This document shows positions 27,212 through 32,328 of a stretch of DNA of 64,000 nt, piece by piece (the first letter of the stretch is position 1; the number at the start of each line of letters is the position of its first letter). This stretch comes from Caldicellulosiruptor bescii DSM 6725. GTDB taxonomy: Bacteria; Bacillota; Thermoanaerobacteria; Caldicellulosiruptorales; Caldicellulosiruptoraceae. Both the position numbers and the translations under genes were made by a program. A model generated the notes under the pieces. It saw only the letters and a program-made list of their open reading frames with translations. It made no database searches and was not told the origin of the DNA. The stretch lies in the NCBI RefSeq assembly GCF_000022325.1, contig NC_012034.1, positions 1,983,501 through 2,047,500 on the forward strand. Direction: 5' to 3'.

Positions 27212-28747
27212 TTAACCTTCAATTAGTCTCCTAATAGCACTATTGAGCCCCTCTATAATATCTGAGGGCAAAATTGTCTGCATTGTCTTTTTTTCAAGCA
27301 AGATATCTGCCGAAAGAGAATGAAGATATACCGACAGTTTTGCCGCCTCAAAAGCAGAATATCCTTGAGCAATCATAGACAAAATAATACCCGTGAGAAC
27401 ATCTCCGCTTCCGCCTTTTGCCATGCCAGGATTGCCAAGGACGTTTATAAAAACCATATCACCATCTGTAATTATTGTCCTTGAACCTTTTAGGACGCAT
27501 ATAGCTCTAAATTCACTTGCAATCTTCTTTGCAGCATCAATGGGACTTTTAGCAACATCTTTTACATCAACATCAAGTACTCTTGCAGCTTCCATATAAT
27601 GCGGAGTTAAAACTTTTTGAGATTTATAGCTTGCCAAAAGTTCTCTTGCTTTTGGGCTTGATGAAAGAGTATTTAGTCCATCTGCATCTATTACAATAGG
27701 TATTTGGAAATTTTCTAAAATATGAATCAATATCTTTTCAACTTCTAAATCCCTTGTAAGCCCACAGCCAAACCCCAAAACATCAAGCTTGGCAAGGTAT
27801 TCGTTAAATTTTACAAAACTATCAAAAGATATAACACCTTCTTTGCCCTCAAGAGGCAGCACTATTATCTCCGGTTTTCTTAAATTCTGAAAATAAAGCG
27901 CTTCTTGGGGTGTTATTAAGTAGCAAAGTCCACAGCCGCTTTGTACTGCAGCATTGCTGCACAGAACCGCCGCACCAGGATAATACTTTGACCCGGCAAC
28001 TATTCCCACCTTGCCATAATCGCCTTTGTGAGAGTCGGGAAACCTGTAAAATCTGGATATATCTAAATCCTCAGCTGTTAGAATTTTTACCTTGATATCT
28101 TTGATAATCTTTTCAGGGATACCTATATCTTTAACAATTACCTTTCCACAATAATAGCTACCTGGGTACAAAATATTCCCTATCTTAGGGTAAACAAACG
28201 TTACTGTCTTGTTAGCCTTAACAGCACAGCCTTTAACTTGAGCTGAATCAGAGCAAATTCCACTTGGAATGTCAACCGAATATACATAAGCGCCGCTACC
28301 ATTTATATACTCAATTGCCTCTTTATAAAGTCCATCAATCTCCTTTGAAAGACCTATTCCAAAGATTGCGTCAACTATTATGTCAAATCTCTGGGTTTTG
28401 AGAGATAATAATAGTTCTTCTGACAAAATGCTAACATCGACTTCCAGCCTTTTCAATATATCAAGGAAAACTTTGGATGTCAAAGTCACATTCTCATCGA
28501 ATAAGAATACCTTTACATTTGGACAAACCTGGGCAAGATACCTTGCAACAACAAATCCATCGCCGCCATTGTTGCCTTTTCCGCAAAAAACTGCAATGTT
28601 TTTGTCATCAAGAGTTTCAAAATCCTTTCTTATCTCTTCAAAAACACAAAAACCAGCATTCTCCATCAACACAACTTCAGGTATCCCTATTTCTTGCGAA
28701 GCTTTCCTGTCAATTTCCTTCATCTGGGATGAGTTCAAAATAAACAT
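27212..28747 (-). CDS. nnr: Bifunctional NAD(P)H-hydrate epimerase/dehydratase
   Basis: A 511-residue metabolite-repair enzyme. The N-terminal YjeF_N epimerase domain (about 1-210) has GKGNNGGDGFVVAR and VDAIFGIGL. The C-terminal ADP-dependent dehydratase domain (about 220-511) has KGDYGKVGIVAGS, LTPHYMEAARVL and GNPGMAKGGSGDVLTGII. It restores damaged hydrated NADH and NADPH. The fused order (E then D) is the usual bacterial one. It lies 20 bases after acpS. Confidence 0.95.
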   Translation of the reverse strand: MFILNSSQMKEIDRKASQEIGIPEVVLMENAGFCVFEEIRKDFETLDDKNIAVFCGKGNNGGDGFVVARYLAQVCPNVKVFLFDENVTLTSKVFLDILKRLEVDVSILSEELLLSLKTQRFDIIVDAIFGIGLSKEIDGLYKEAIEYINGSGAYVYSVDIPSGICSDSAQVKGCAVKANKTVTFVYPKIGNILYPGSYYCGKVIVKDIGIPEKIIKDIKVKILTAEDLDISRFYRFPDSHKGDYGKVGIVAGSKYYPGAAVLCSNAAVQSGCGLCYLITPQEALYFQNLRKPEIIVLPLEGKEGVISFDSFVKFNEYLAKLDVLGFGCGLTRDLEVEKILIHILENFQIPIVIDADGLNTLSSSPKARELLASYKSQKVLTPHYMEAARVLDVDVKDVAKSPIDAAKKIASEFRAICVLKGSRTIITDGDMVFINVLGNPGMAKGGSGDVLTGIILSMIAQGYSAFEAAKLSVYLHSLSADILLEKKTMQTILPSDIIEGLNSAIRRLIEG

Positions 28748-28767
28748 TTATCATCCCTTCTTTTTTT

Positions 28768-29133
28768 TTATTTTTCAGCAATGGCAACTGCAACTGCAAC
28801 TGATTTTTGGTGAGATATACTCACCACAATATTTTTAATTCCAAGCTCAAAACAAAGAGCCTCTGCCCTGTTATAAAGCTTCACCATTGGACAACCAGTT
28901 TTTCCTTTTTGTATTTCTATGTCTTTAAAGCAAAAAACAACTCCTGTTGAAAGTGCTTTGGCAACTGCTTCTTTTGCAGCAAAATACCCTGCTATTGTCT
29001 CAGGATTATATCTTTTCTGTTTTATATATTCAAGCTCACAGGAAGTAAACACCCTTTTTAAAAATTCATCAAATCTCTTCATATCTTTGAATCTGTCCAC
29101 TTCAACAACATCAATACCAATATTAAATATCAT
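28768..29133 (-). CDS. acpS: Holo-[acyl-carrier-protein] synthase
   Basis: A 121-residue protein transferring 4'-phosphopantetheine from CoA to ACP. The two magnesium-binding motifs are GIDVVEVDRF near the start and the Glu of FAAKEAVAKAL (about residue 58). The C-terminal VSISHQKSVAVAVAI is also conserved. It is the first gene of the acpS-nnr-lipoprotein-alr-mazEF block. The short divergent region upstream also serves the cysteine-rich ORF. Confidence 0.95.
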   Translation of the reverse strand: MIFNIGIDVVEVDRFKDMKRFDEFLKRVFTSCELEYIKQKRYNPETIAGYFAAKEAVAKALSTGVVFCFKDIEIQKGKTGCPMVKLYNRAEALCFELGIKNIVVSISHQKSVAVAVAIAEK

Positions 29134-29218
29134 AAACTATTTTCCCCTTCTAAGTTAAATATTGCATAATTTTTGCTTAAAAAACAACAAAAAATATAAA
29201 TGAAAGGAGGGACTAAAC

Positions 29219-29383
29219 ATGAGTTTTATAAGCTGCTGGTATCCCTGCAAATATCAAAAAGAAGGATACTGCTTAAAAACTCACGTTTGTCCACCATCAA
29301 AATACTGTACTGATTTTTGTCTGTTTTTTGAACCAATAGAAAGTATTAAAAGAAAAAAAGAGAAAGAAAAAGAAAACCTTTAG
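29219..29383 (+). CDS. 54-residue cysteine-rich protein, unknown
   Basis: An ATG preceded at 8 bases by a perfect AAAGGAGG opens 54 codons. The first 40 residues carry six cysteines (positions 6, 10, 18, 24, 30 and 34) with aromatic residues between them, for example SCWYPCKY and SKYCTDFCLFF. A highly charged KRKKEKEKEN tail follows. The spacing suggests metal binding (zinc or iron-sulfur) or disulfides; I do not recognise the family. It is the only plus-strand gene between acpS and pdxT, and its stop lies four bases from the pdxT stop. Confidence 0.7.
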   Translation: MSFISCWYPCKYQKEGYCLKTHVCPPSKYCTDFCLFFEPIESIKRKKEKEKENL

Positions 29384-29386
29384 AAA

Positions 29387-29953
29387 TTATTTTACCATAT
29401 TCTCCACAAAGAAAGAATGCCAATAATTTTGAGATGTGAGCTCCGGATGAAATGTTGTAGCCAAGATATTTTTTTGCAAAACTGCAATTGGAGTTTCAAG
29501 CTCTGCTAAGACCTCAACACCCTCTGCTACCTCAACAATCCTCGGCGCTCTTATAAAAATGCACTCTGTGGCTATGTTGAATCTTGGGACAAAAACTTCT
29601 TTTTTGAAACTGTCAAGCTGGCTTCCATAGGCATTTCTTTCTATCACTATGTTAAGAACGGGAAGAACACCACTTCCCTGGTTTTTGATATTTTTAGAAA
29701 GCAAAATTGCACCGGCACATGTTCCCCAAACTGGCATACCTTCATATATTAAGTTTAAAATCTGATCTTTTAAGCCTGTTTCAATCAAAAATTTTCCAAT
29801 TGTAGTACTTTCTCCCCCAGGCAAAATTAAACCATCAAGGTCTTTTAAATCCTCTTTTTTCTTGACAAGCTGAGGCTTTGCCCCAAGCTCTTCTATCTTT
29901 TTCACATGTTCTATAACTCCGCCTTGAAAAGCTAATACTCCTATTGTCTTCAA
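29387..29953 (-). CDS. pdxT: Pyridoxal 5'-phosphate synthase glutaminase subunit
   Basis: A 188-residue class I glutaminase that feeds ammonia to PdxS. Visible are the LPGGESTTI substrate loop, the nucleophile Cys in WGTCAGAILL (about residue 78), and the His-Glu pair in TTFHPEL near the C-terminus. It lies 3 bases after pdxS. Length is normal. Confidence 0.96.
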   Translation of the reverse strand: MKTIGVLAFQGGVIEHVKKIEELGAKPQLVKKKEDLKDLDGLILPGGESTTIGKFLIETGLKDQILNLIYEGMPVWGTCAGAILLSKNIKNQGSGVLPVLNIVIERNAYGSQLDSFKKEVFVPRFNIATECIFIRAPRIVEVAEGVEVLAELETPIAVLQKNILATTFHPELTSQNYWHSFFVENMVK

Positions 29954-29956
29954 TTT

Positions 29957-30847
29957 TTAATTCCCCCTGAGACTCAAAAGTTCATGCTCAGAAAGACTTC
30001 TCAAATCTATACCTTCCATCTCTTCGCCAAGGTCGTATGATATTTCTGCCAAGATTTTTGGGTCATTGTAATATGTTGTTGCCATCACAATTGCCCTTGC
30101 TCTTTTCTCAGGATTTTTGCTCTTGAAAATGCCAGAGCCGACAAATACGCCATCTGCACCAAGCTGCATCATCAAAGCTGCATCAGCTGGTGTTGCAATT
30201 CCACCCGCCGCAAAGTTGACAACAGGAAGACGTTTGAGCTCGGCTGTTTTTTTCAAAAGTTCATAGGACACTCCAAGTTCCTTTGCATATGCATAAAGCT
30301 CATCTCTATTTAGCGATGCAGCATAGCTAATTTGTTTATTTATTCTGCGAAGGTGTCTTACCGCCTCAACTACATTTCCTGTCCCAGCTTCACCTTTTGT
30401 TCTTATCATAGAAGCTCCCTCTTGAATTCTCCTCAGAGCTTCGCCTAAATCCCTTGCACCGCACACGAACGCAGCTTTGAACTTCCACTTATCAATGTGA
30501 TGCTCCTCATCAGCAGGAGTTAAAACTTCACTTTCGTCAATATAATCTATACCAAGTGCTTCTAAAATCTGTGCTTCAACAAAGTGTCCAATTCTTACCT
30601 TTGCCATAACAGGTATTGAAACAGCACTTTTAATTTCCAATATTATTTTCGGGTCAGCCATTCTTGCTACTTTGCCTTCTTTGCGCAGATCTGCCGGAAC
30701 TTTTTGAAGAGCCATAACAGCAACAGCACCTGCTTTTTCAGCAATCTCAGCCTCTTTTGGAGATGTCACATCCATGATGACACCGCCTTTTAGCATCTGC
30801 GCAAGGTTTTTGTTGAGCTCATATCTCTCATTTACAACCTCGCTCAT
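29957..30847 (-). CDS. pdxS: Pyridoxal 5'-phosphate synthase lyase subunit
   Basis: A 296-residue TIM-barrel enzyme making PLP from ribose 5-phosphate, glyceraldehyde 3-phosphate and ammonia. Conserved segments include [16 protein letters not shown], the catalytic-lysine region [26 protein letters not shown], and [23 protein letters not shown] Shine-Dalgarno precedes the ATG. Divergent from a MocR regulator, with overlapping promoters between them. Confidence 0.97.
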
Positions 30848-30866
30848 AATTTAGCACCTCCGTATC

Positions 30867-30906
30867 GATATAATTTGTTGAAGTCTTTTGTCCACTTTAT
30901 TATAAT
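30867..30906. promoter_or_regulatory. Overlapping divergent promoters of pdxST and the MocR gene, with candidate operator
   Basis: Plus strand: TTGAAG (30878-30883), 17-base spacer, TATAAT (30901-30906), serving the MocR gene. Minus strand: TGGACA (30889-30894), 16-base spacer, TATATC (30867-30872), serving pdxS. Between and across them, 30881-30897 is an AAGT-N9-ACTT inverted repeat. A protein bound there would cover both -35 regions. That the adjacent MocR protein binds it is inference. Confidence 0.55.
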
Positions 30907-30936
30907 TAAAATAAACTGTGTGTAAAGACGGGATGA

Positions 30937-32328
30937 ATGATGAGTGTATCGATACAGATTGACAAGAATTTAAAAAAGCCTCTTTACCTTCAGCTTTATG
31001 AAGATATAAAGCAAAAGATTTTGTCAGGTGAGATTAGTTATATGCAGAGGCTTCCGTCTGTGAGAAATCTTTGCAAGACGTTAAATGTGAATCTTTCAAC
31101 TGTTACAAAGGCGCTGAGCAAGCTTGAAAATGAAGGCTATATCAAAGCAACCCCTGGAAGTGGTTATTACGTTGTATACAGTGAGTATCAAGATAAAATC
31201 ATTTTTGAGGAAGAAAACCTTGTAGATGCTCAAGGTTATATCAATTTGGCTTCATCAAAGCTTCCATATAACCTATATCCTATCGAATGGTTCAAAGATT
31301 CTTTAAACTGCGCAATCGAAGAGTATTCACCACAGATTTTCGATTATATCGAACATTTTAAAAATCCTCTAAAGGAGTACTTGGTAGAGACATATCTTAA
31401 AAAGCTTGGGATTGTTACAAGCCCTCAAGAGCTCACAATTGTATCAGGTGCTCAGCAGGGAATTGAGATTACAACAAAAAGTTTTTTAAAGCCCGGCGAT
31501 ACAATATTTTTAGAAAATCCTTCGTATCTCGGTGCATACCATATATTTAGCAATATGCACCTGAACATTGTTAGTCTTGACATTGACCAGATGCTAAATA
31601 TAGAAGATTACATTAAAAAGTTTTTACCAAAGGCCATATACATTATTCCTTTTTCGCAAAATCCAACCGGGATTTCATACAGCAAAGAGTACAAGGAGTA
31701 TCTGTGTGAGATTTCACAAAAATATGACTTTTATATCATTGAAGATGATTTTTTAAGCGATATAGGGGTGGATGAAGGAATTTTACCAATCAAAGCATAT
31801 GACAAACACGACAGGGTGTTTTACATAAAGAGCTTTTCAACCGTTACAATGCCTGCACTGAGAATTGGATTTGTTGTGGCACCAAGGCATCTTTCCGAAG
31901 AGGTTGCATACTACAAGTCAATGGCAGATATCTCAACATCGCTTTTGATACAGGTATCTTTTTATTATTTTTTGAAAAACTTCTTTGACAAGCACATAGA
32001 AAACTTGAAAGTATACATAAACCAAAGACAAAAGCTATTTTTAAGATTGGCAAAAGACCTGCAAATAGACGACAGACTATTTACTCAAGATGTTCAGGGA
32101 ATATTTGTTTCTTTCTATCTTCCACCAACGATATCATCTGCTACTGTTTATAATAAACTTAAATCACAAAAGGTTTTAGTGCAGCCCCATACATGTTTTT
32201 ATCACAAACCTGCCTCTACAAACTTTTTTAGAATAAGTTTTTTAGATTGCAGTGAAGATGAACTTCAAATAGCTATGCAGAAAATTCAAAAGGTTTTGAA
32301 TTCAGCTTACCAAAAAGAGGAGGTATGA
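30937..32328 (+). CDS. MocR/GabR-type regulator lacking the PLP lysine
   Basis: A 463-residue GntR winged helix (about 10-80, with LPSVRNLCKTLNVNLSTVTKA) fused to a fold-type I aminotransferase domain. The usual SFSK motif holding the PLP lysine reads SFST here (Thr302, in YIKSFSTVTMPALRIG), so no Schiff base can form at the normal position. Lys298 lies four residues earlier. The cofactor-contacting Asp271 (IIEDDF) and the NPTG loop remain. The downstream M20 gene follows after 3 bases, so it may control amino-acid salvage rather than, or as well as, pdxST. Confidence 0.85.
   Translation: MMSVSIQIDKNLKKPLYLQLYEDIKQKILSGEISYMQRLPSVRNLCKTLNVNLSTVTKALSKLENEGYIKATPGSGYYVVYSEYQDKIIFEEENLVDAQGYINLASSKLPYNLYPIEWFKDSLNCAIEEYSPQIFDYIEHFKNPLKEYLVETYLKKLGIVTSPQELTIVSGAQQGIEITTKSFLKPGDTIFLENPSYLGAYHIFSNMHLNIVSLDIDQMLNIEDYIKKFLPKAIYIIPFSQNPTGISYSKEYKEYLCEISQKYDFYIIEDDFLSDIGVDEGILPIKAYDKHDRVFYIKSFSTVTMPALRIGFVVAPRHLSEEVAYYKSMADISTSLLIQVSFYYFLKNFFDKHIENLKVYINQRQKLFLRLAKDLQIDDRLFTQDVQGIFVSFYLPPTISSATVYNKLKSQKVLVQPHTCFYHKPASTNFFRISFLDCSEDELQIAMQKIQKVLNSAYQKEEV

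Follow-up and report, generated by a model that had tools for sequence, protein, structure and literature searches.

The window, the whole stretch of 64,000 nucleotides that was analysed, contains between acpS and pdxT a short open reading frame (ORF) that starts with an ATG at position 29219, stops with a TAG at 29381–29383 and encodes 54 residues (MSFISCWYPCKYQKEGYCLKTHVCPPSKYCTDFCLFFEPIESIKRKKEKEKENL). The ORF is preceded by AAAGGAGG, is the sole plus-strand gene of the acpS–pdxT interval and ends 3 bp short of the pdxT stop codon. The features of the locus are the following:

28768–29133, minus strand: acpS, divergent from the ORF
29134–29218, no strand: 85-bp intergenic region that separates the ORF from the divergent acpS, to which no plus-strand promoter is assignable
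29203–29210, plus strand: Shine–Dalgarno sequence AAAGGAGG, largely conserved in the aligned upstream regions of the genus orthologues
29219–29383, plus strand: the 54-residue ORF, stop codon included, backed by orthologues and purifying selection
29234–29320, plus strand: four-cysteine core, codons C6 to C34, from alignments, the codon table and a count of spacings
29321–29380, plus strand: charged tail, present in the genus, with no family conservation in the alignment
29387–29953, minus strand: pdxT, convergent with the ORF

The original prediction had described a perfect AAAGGAGG Shine–Dalgarno sequence and an ORF standing alone on the plus strand between acpS and pdxT. We confirmed the motif at its position, separated from the ATG by a gap of 8 nt, and both flanking genes were found on the minus strand. 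Judged by layout, the ORF has no operon partner in the window. A simple promoter and terminator scan of 29050–29480 detected neither a plus-strand promoter nor a terminator; it returned two promoter-like sites on the minus strand, which do not exceed chance. Rfam yielded no match over 28000–31000. The encoded protein contains cysteines at positions 6, 10, 18, 24, 30 and 34, which span 29 residues and are followed by a Lys/Glu-rich tail. Inspection by eye revealed no signal peptide or membrane segment, and the product is probably soluble.

Conservation of the ORF and a predicted four-cysteine family

We found that the ORF is a real gene under purifying selection. An orthologue is located at the same place in all 12 genomes of the genus (its own included), with 74–98% identity in the 11 other genomes examined, and the order of nnr, acpS, pdxT and pdxS around it is constant across the genus. 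The single other genus of the same taxonomic family that we examined (G012) has an orthologue with 51% identity that adjoins acpS. These identities in two genera, together with the constant gene order, place the ORF beyond chance. Lack of conservation of the frame in close relatives had been named as the outcome that would speak against the original prediction, and the orthologues in 11/11 other genus genomes are the reverse of it. Codon changes within the genus were synonymous for the most part, and dN/dS ranged from 0.062 to 0.147 in 12 of the 15 pairs formed by six sequences (undefined in 3). At the G012 locus, acpS and nnr are both present, and what comes next is, as judged by eye, similar to the MocR-like gene at 30937–32328. 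Among the 61 genomes of the orthologue search, 20 further genomes matched only weakly (E 0.007 to 0.65), most of them by chance.

The cysteines are conserved to different degrees. Within the genus, C6, C10, C18, C24 and C34 never vary, and C30 is replaced by Asn in 4 of the 12 genus genomes; the orthologue of the second genus lacks both C24 and C30. Because C30 varies and both residues are absent from the second genus, six cysteines are not the conserved feature, which reduces to four. Thus, the six cysteines in 29 residues noted originally are present in the window protein, but only four persist family-wide, and the spacing check among orthologues that had been proposed showed C6, C10, C18 and C34 to be kept and C24 and C30 to vary. 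The charged tail of that description is likewise present and kept in the genus, but is not conserved outside it.

On the basis of profile comparisons, the ORF product is a member of an uncatalogued clostridial four-cysteine family that remotely resembles DUF1540. The window protein alone had no match in Pfam or NCBIfam, and a search of genome contigs with this single protein returned 343 stretches, of which 0 were confirmed. A family profile seeded from weak matches in the class detected the family in 29/37 class genomes at E 0.05 and in 28/398 phylum genomes at E 0.01. A narrower alignment led to 61 loci with record titles, from Thermoanaerobacter, Caldanaerobacter and many bins of gut and other Clostridia, with two bins contributing two loci each. 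A 55-row profile, consisting of the window protein and 54 of the 58 distinct locus proteins, identified the family in 36/398 phylum genomes at E 0.001.

The family pattern is C-x3-C-x7-C-x13..32-C, with the core TNINCxxxCIYQKDGKCT and the consensus MTNINCTxNCIYQKDGKCT...CAYF. In the 55 aligned sequences, I4, C6, C10, Y12, G16, C18 and C34 are invariant. The first two cysteine gaps are 3 and 7 residues in 61/61 loci and the last ranges from 13 to 32; exactly four cysteines are present in 39/61 relatives. In a Pfam scan, 6 of the 55 rows matched DUF1540 at E 0.1 (best 5.2e-4), nine further names came up in no more than two rows apiece, and the NCBIfam scan of the same rows gave one stray match. 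A PDB sequence search found no solved relative, and two AlphaFold2 models (pLDDT 54.4 and 50.2) were too poor to show a site. We found no paper on the family in a literature search that had most subscription papers outside its reach. 'Hydroxymyristoyl-ACP dehydratase' is a database label given to such small proteins.

The gene neighbourhoods of the relatives differ, so that the neighbourhood alone gives no function. In 34/61 loci, nth (endonuclease III, HhH-GPD) precedes the family gene on the same strand at a distance of no more than 400 bp, and in 42/61 it does so within 1.5 kb; in the window genome, it is located elsewhere on the chromosome, far away. splB was found near 7/61 loci (within 1.5 kb in 5/61) and abuts the family gene in G041, and SpoIIP was near 7/61 loci, always within 1.5 kb. 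The family gene also stands beside radA-like genes (G104 and G401) and recR-like genes (G264, G393 and G411), all named by eye. In Thermoanaerobacter and its neighbours, it faces an amidase–rph–rdgB–phosphoesterase block, either full or partial. A tblastn search at 1e-3 found no acpS, nnr, alr, pdxT or pdxS near the 61 relatives.

Sigma-G-type motifs and sporulation genes among the relatives

We scanned 69 upstream regions with five sigma consensus types, using a 12-position score. Sigma-G matches of at least 11/12 occurred in 26/69 upstreams, compared with about 1 expected from shuffles. The corresponding counts for the same upstreams were 4 versus 1.8 expected for sigma-F, 22 versus 15.4 for sigma-K, 0 versus 0 for sigma-E and 0 versus 0.2 for sigma-A. 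Among the 61 relatives, 25 had a sigma-G-type motif of at least 11/12; of 695 other ORFs that served as controls from these loci, 11 did. Two of these controls reached 12/12, and by eye one of them resembles SpoVT. Genes of the neighbourhood, examined as 117 copies from six families (nth, c1, rpe, prkC, splB and spoIIP), never reached this score, and 0 of 300 permuted motifs gave 25 matches, the maximum being 15. The spacer was 17 in 24/25 matches. Under a looser rule (10/12, spacer 17, −22 to −50), 36/61 relatives and 35/695 controls matched. A point against these motifs is that, in many matches, about 19 nt separate the end of the −10 element from the start codon, which would leave a leader of only some 12 nt.

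When the relatives were clustered by protein identity, a match was present in 20/48 clusters at 90%, 15/32 at 75% and 3/9 at 65%, and the last figure indicates that the signal comes mainly from one large clostridial group. Many members in this group have, as judged from upstream motifs, their own predicted forespore sigma-G-type promoter. In PMC3789822, the forespore consensus of C. difficile is described as very similar to that of B. subtilis. The best sigma-G score of the window gene was 9/12, which equals background. Scores were 8–9 for the window gene, the nine scored genus loci, the second genus and the genome's own DUF1540 gene, and 8 for four Thermoanaerobacter loci, and none of 21 more distant family members exceeded 10. 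The promoter data therefore support a forespore compartment for only part of the family, and the proposed sporulation link for the window gene itself comes from its relatives.

As far as profile matches indicate, the family is widespread among clostridial genomes carrying sporulation genes. All 36 family-positive phylum genomes, seven of them from the window's genus, were SpoIVA-positive, compared with 340/398 overall; this is a raw count that includes kinship, obtained by comparing the lists by eye. Within the genus, we detected sigG relatives in 11/12 genomes (below the curated cut-off, with E near 1e-125), SpoIVA in 11/12, SpoIIIAH in 11/12 and SASP in 12/12. Judging by gene content, the organism of the window is very probably a Caldicellulosiruptor. 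In PMC3533761, Caldicellulosiruptor is termed non-sporogenous; marker genes are reported to be present, and the SASP copies number three each.

The genus genome without sigG, SpoIVA and SpoIIIAH matches (G007) is also the one of the 12 that has an in-frame TAG, at ORF codon 8. We considered this genome as a natural knockout. However, 2 of 21 other window genes matched near the ORF in G007 also hold a stop (counting the best aligned piece per gene), which makes the coincidence weak and weakens this idea. The stops in G007 (L011 and L221) may reflect sporulation loss, general decay or sequencing errors. The same genome retains DUF1540 and two SASP genes.

Resemblance to DUF1540 and candidate functions

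The nearest named family is DUF1540 (PF07561), and the resemblance is weak and remote. Both families have four cysteines, small size, a C-x-Y-x-K-D-like stretch between the second and third cysteines, an aromatic residue past the last cysteine and, upstream of many of their genes, a sigma-G-type motif. By contrast, the first cysteine gap is C-x4-C in the DUF1540 rows and C-x3-C in the family. The window protein did not match the DUF1540 model at E 10, and two relatives scored 14.0 and 19.2 bits, under the gathering cut-off of 22.1. An hhalign comparison of the two families gave a probability of 69% and an E value of 4.3e-5 over 33 columns, with only five rows on the DUF1540 side. The two families coexist within single genomes, at separate loci. 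For DUF1540 in related genomes, 20 loci (L068–L087) were fetched, the spurious second frame of one locus being left out; of the 18 readable upstreams, 13 scored 11–12, nine of these coming from one genus, in a sample without its own control set. The window genome's own DUF1540 gene (L180:3173-3364) lies one gene from a radA-like gene, which was named by eye.

According to PMC2955703, DUF1540 clusters with sporulation domains, and PMC7677010 (2020) states that it has been assigned no function. DUF1540 proteins encoded beside bd oxidase genes are described, in PMC5322542, as having a membrane segment, which is a poor fit with a soluble cousin, the window protein having none by eye. CdeA of Clostridioides difficile, which PMC7677010 presents as an exosporium protein with a DUF1540 domain, resembles the family in being cysteine-rich and is a spore protein; unlike the family, it has a mass of 11.4 kDa and is placed in the exosporium, and the likeness is one of description.

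Another point of comparison is CsfB/Gin (PF10764), the zinc-containing anti-sigma factor of Bacillus, which offers an analogy of action in being very small, forespore-located and cysteine-based; in PMC4383634, it is described as a tiny protein that contains zinc and controls forespore sigma factors. The Gin Pfam model matched neither the window protein nor the family rows. Gin was detected in 24/24 class genomes outside the window's taxonomic family and in 0/13 inside it (G000–G012); the B. subtilis control gave no match, so the absences are weak. The 13 genomes without a Gin match include 12 with sigG relatives. We considered the four-cysteine family as a substitute for Gin and rejected this idea, as other genomes of the class have both.

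With four invariant cysteines, a variable loop before the fourth and no signal peptide or membrane segment by eye, a small metal-binding protein appears to be the likeliest reading of the ORF, its unit being four cysteines and not six. The original suggestion of a small metal-binding or iron–sulfur protein thus receives partial support. We would give roughly even chances to the fuller proposal that the product is a small metal-binding protein of the forespore, with zinc the most likely metal, from a four-cysteine clostridial family. The four cysteines would hold one metal ion, and the protein would be made late in the forespore and act there, either as a small regulator working like the unrelated CsfB/Gin or as a spore-core protein. 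The window's genus is reported to be non-sporulating but retains sigG, spoIVA and SASP genes, and selection maintains the protein there although its gene has no visible sigma-G motif. What is new in this proposal, and open to testing, is the predicted sporulation link; the metal idea is plausible. Beyond this, the family and its probable cousin DUF1540 could, both under the control of sigma-G, make up a class of tiny forespore metalloproteins with four cysteines that has gone unnoticed in Clostridia. These proteins would supply bound metal to the spore core or serve as metal-sensing switches of late forespore gene expression, and the window's genus would keep its protein through a cryptic or reduced spore programme. 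We consider this extension less likely than not.

In many genomes, small spore proteins remain nameless when no Pfam or NCBIfam model covers them, and with a four-cysteine family that has sigma-G-type promoters the clostridial forespore programme would gain a concrete member that can be tested. DUF1540 would gain a predicted compartment, the forespore. The question also becomes sharper of why a genus reported to be non-sporulating keeps sigG, SASP genes and the ORF under selection.

One alternative to a forespore metalloprotein is a vegetative housekeeping protein, a small zinc or Fe–S protein with a metal or redox role in growing cells, which one gut lineage came to express in the forespore as well. 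Such a protein would explain the persistence of purifying selection in a genus reported not to sporulate and the lack of a sigma-G motif in that genus and in Thermoanaerobacter. We nevertheless regard it as unlikely, given the presence of SpoIVA in every family-positive phylum genome and the stop in the ORF of the sole genus genome that lacks sigG, SpoIVA and SpoIIIAH, the latter point being tempered by the stops in two of its 21 nearby genes. A cysteine-rich, DUF1540-like protein might also be cross-linked by disulfides into the spore coat or exosporium, where CdeA provides a precedent. Proteins of the coat and exosporium are generally made in the mother cell. The motif that we found is of the forespore type, and the cysteine count is low, with exactly four in most relatives, both of which make a structural role of this kind improbable.

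The neighbours listed above also suggest a partner of spore DNA-repair enzymes (endonuclease III, spore photoproduct lyase, RadA and RecR), since nth so often lies upstream and splB, radA-like and recR-like genes adjoin the family gene in single genomes. However, the nth loci belong mostly to one related group, in which the family gene has its own promoter motif and nth has none (0/43), and on the window genome's chromosome nth lies elsewhere. Moreover, the 'repair' grouping was set after the neighbours had been seen and without a background count. We therefore judge a repair partnership highly improbable, and favour the metal-binding forespore protein.

There are two further minor observations. 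The start codons assigned in the 61 relatives (L088–L148) comprise 36 TTG, 11 GTG and 14 ATG, an unusually high frequency of non-ATG starts. In G011, the SpoIVA match is split into two pieces that overlap, and a TAG in one of them may point to a broken gene; the family gene of this genome is intact.
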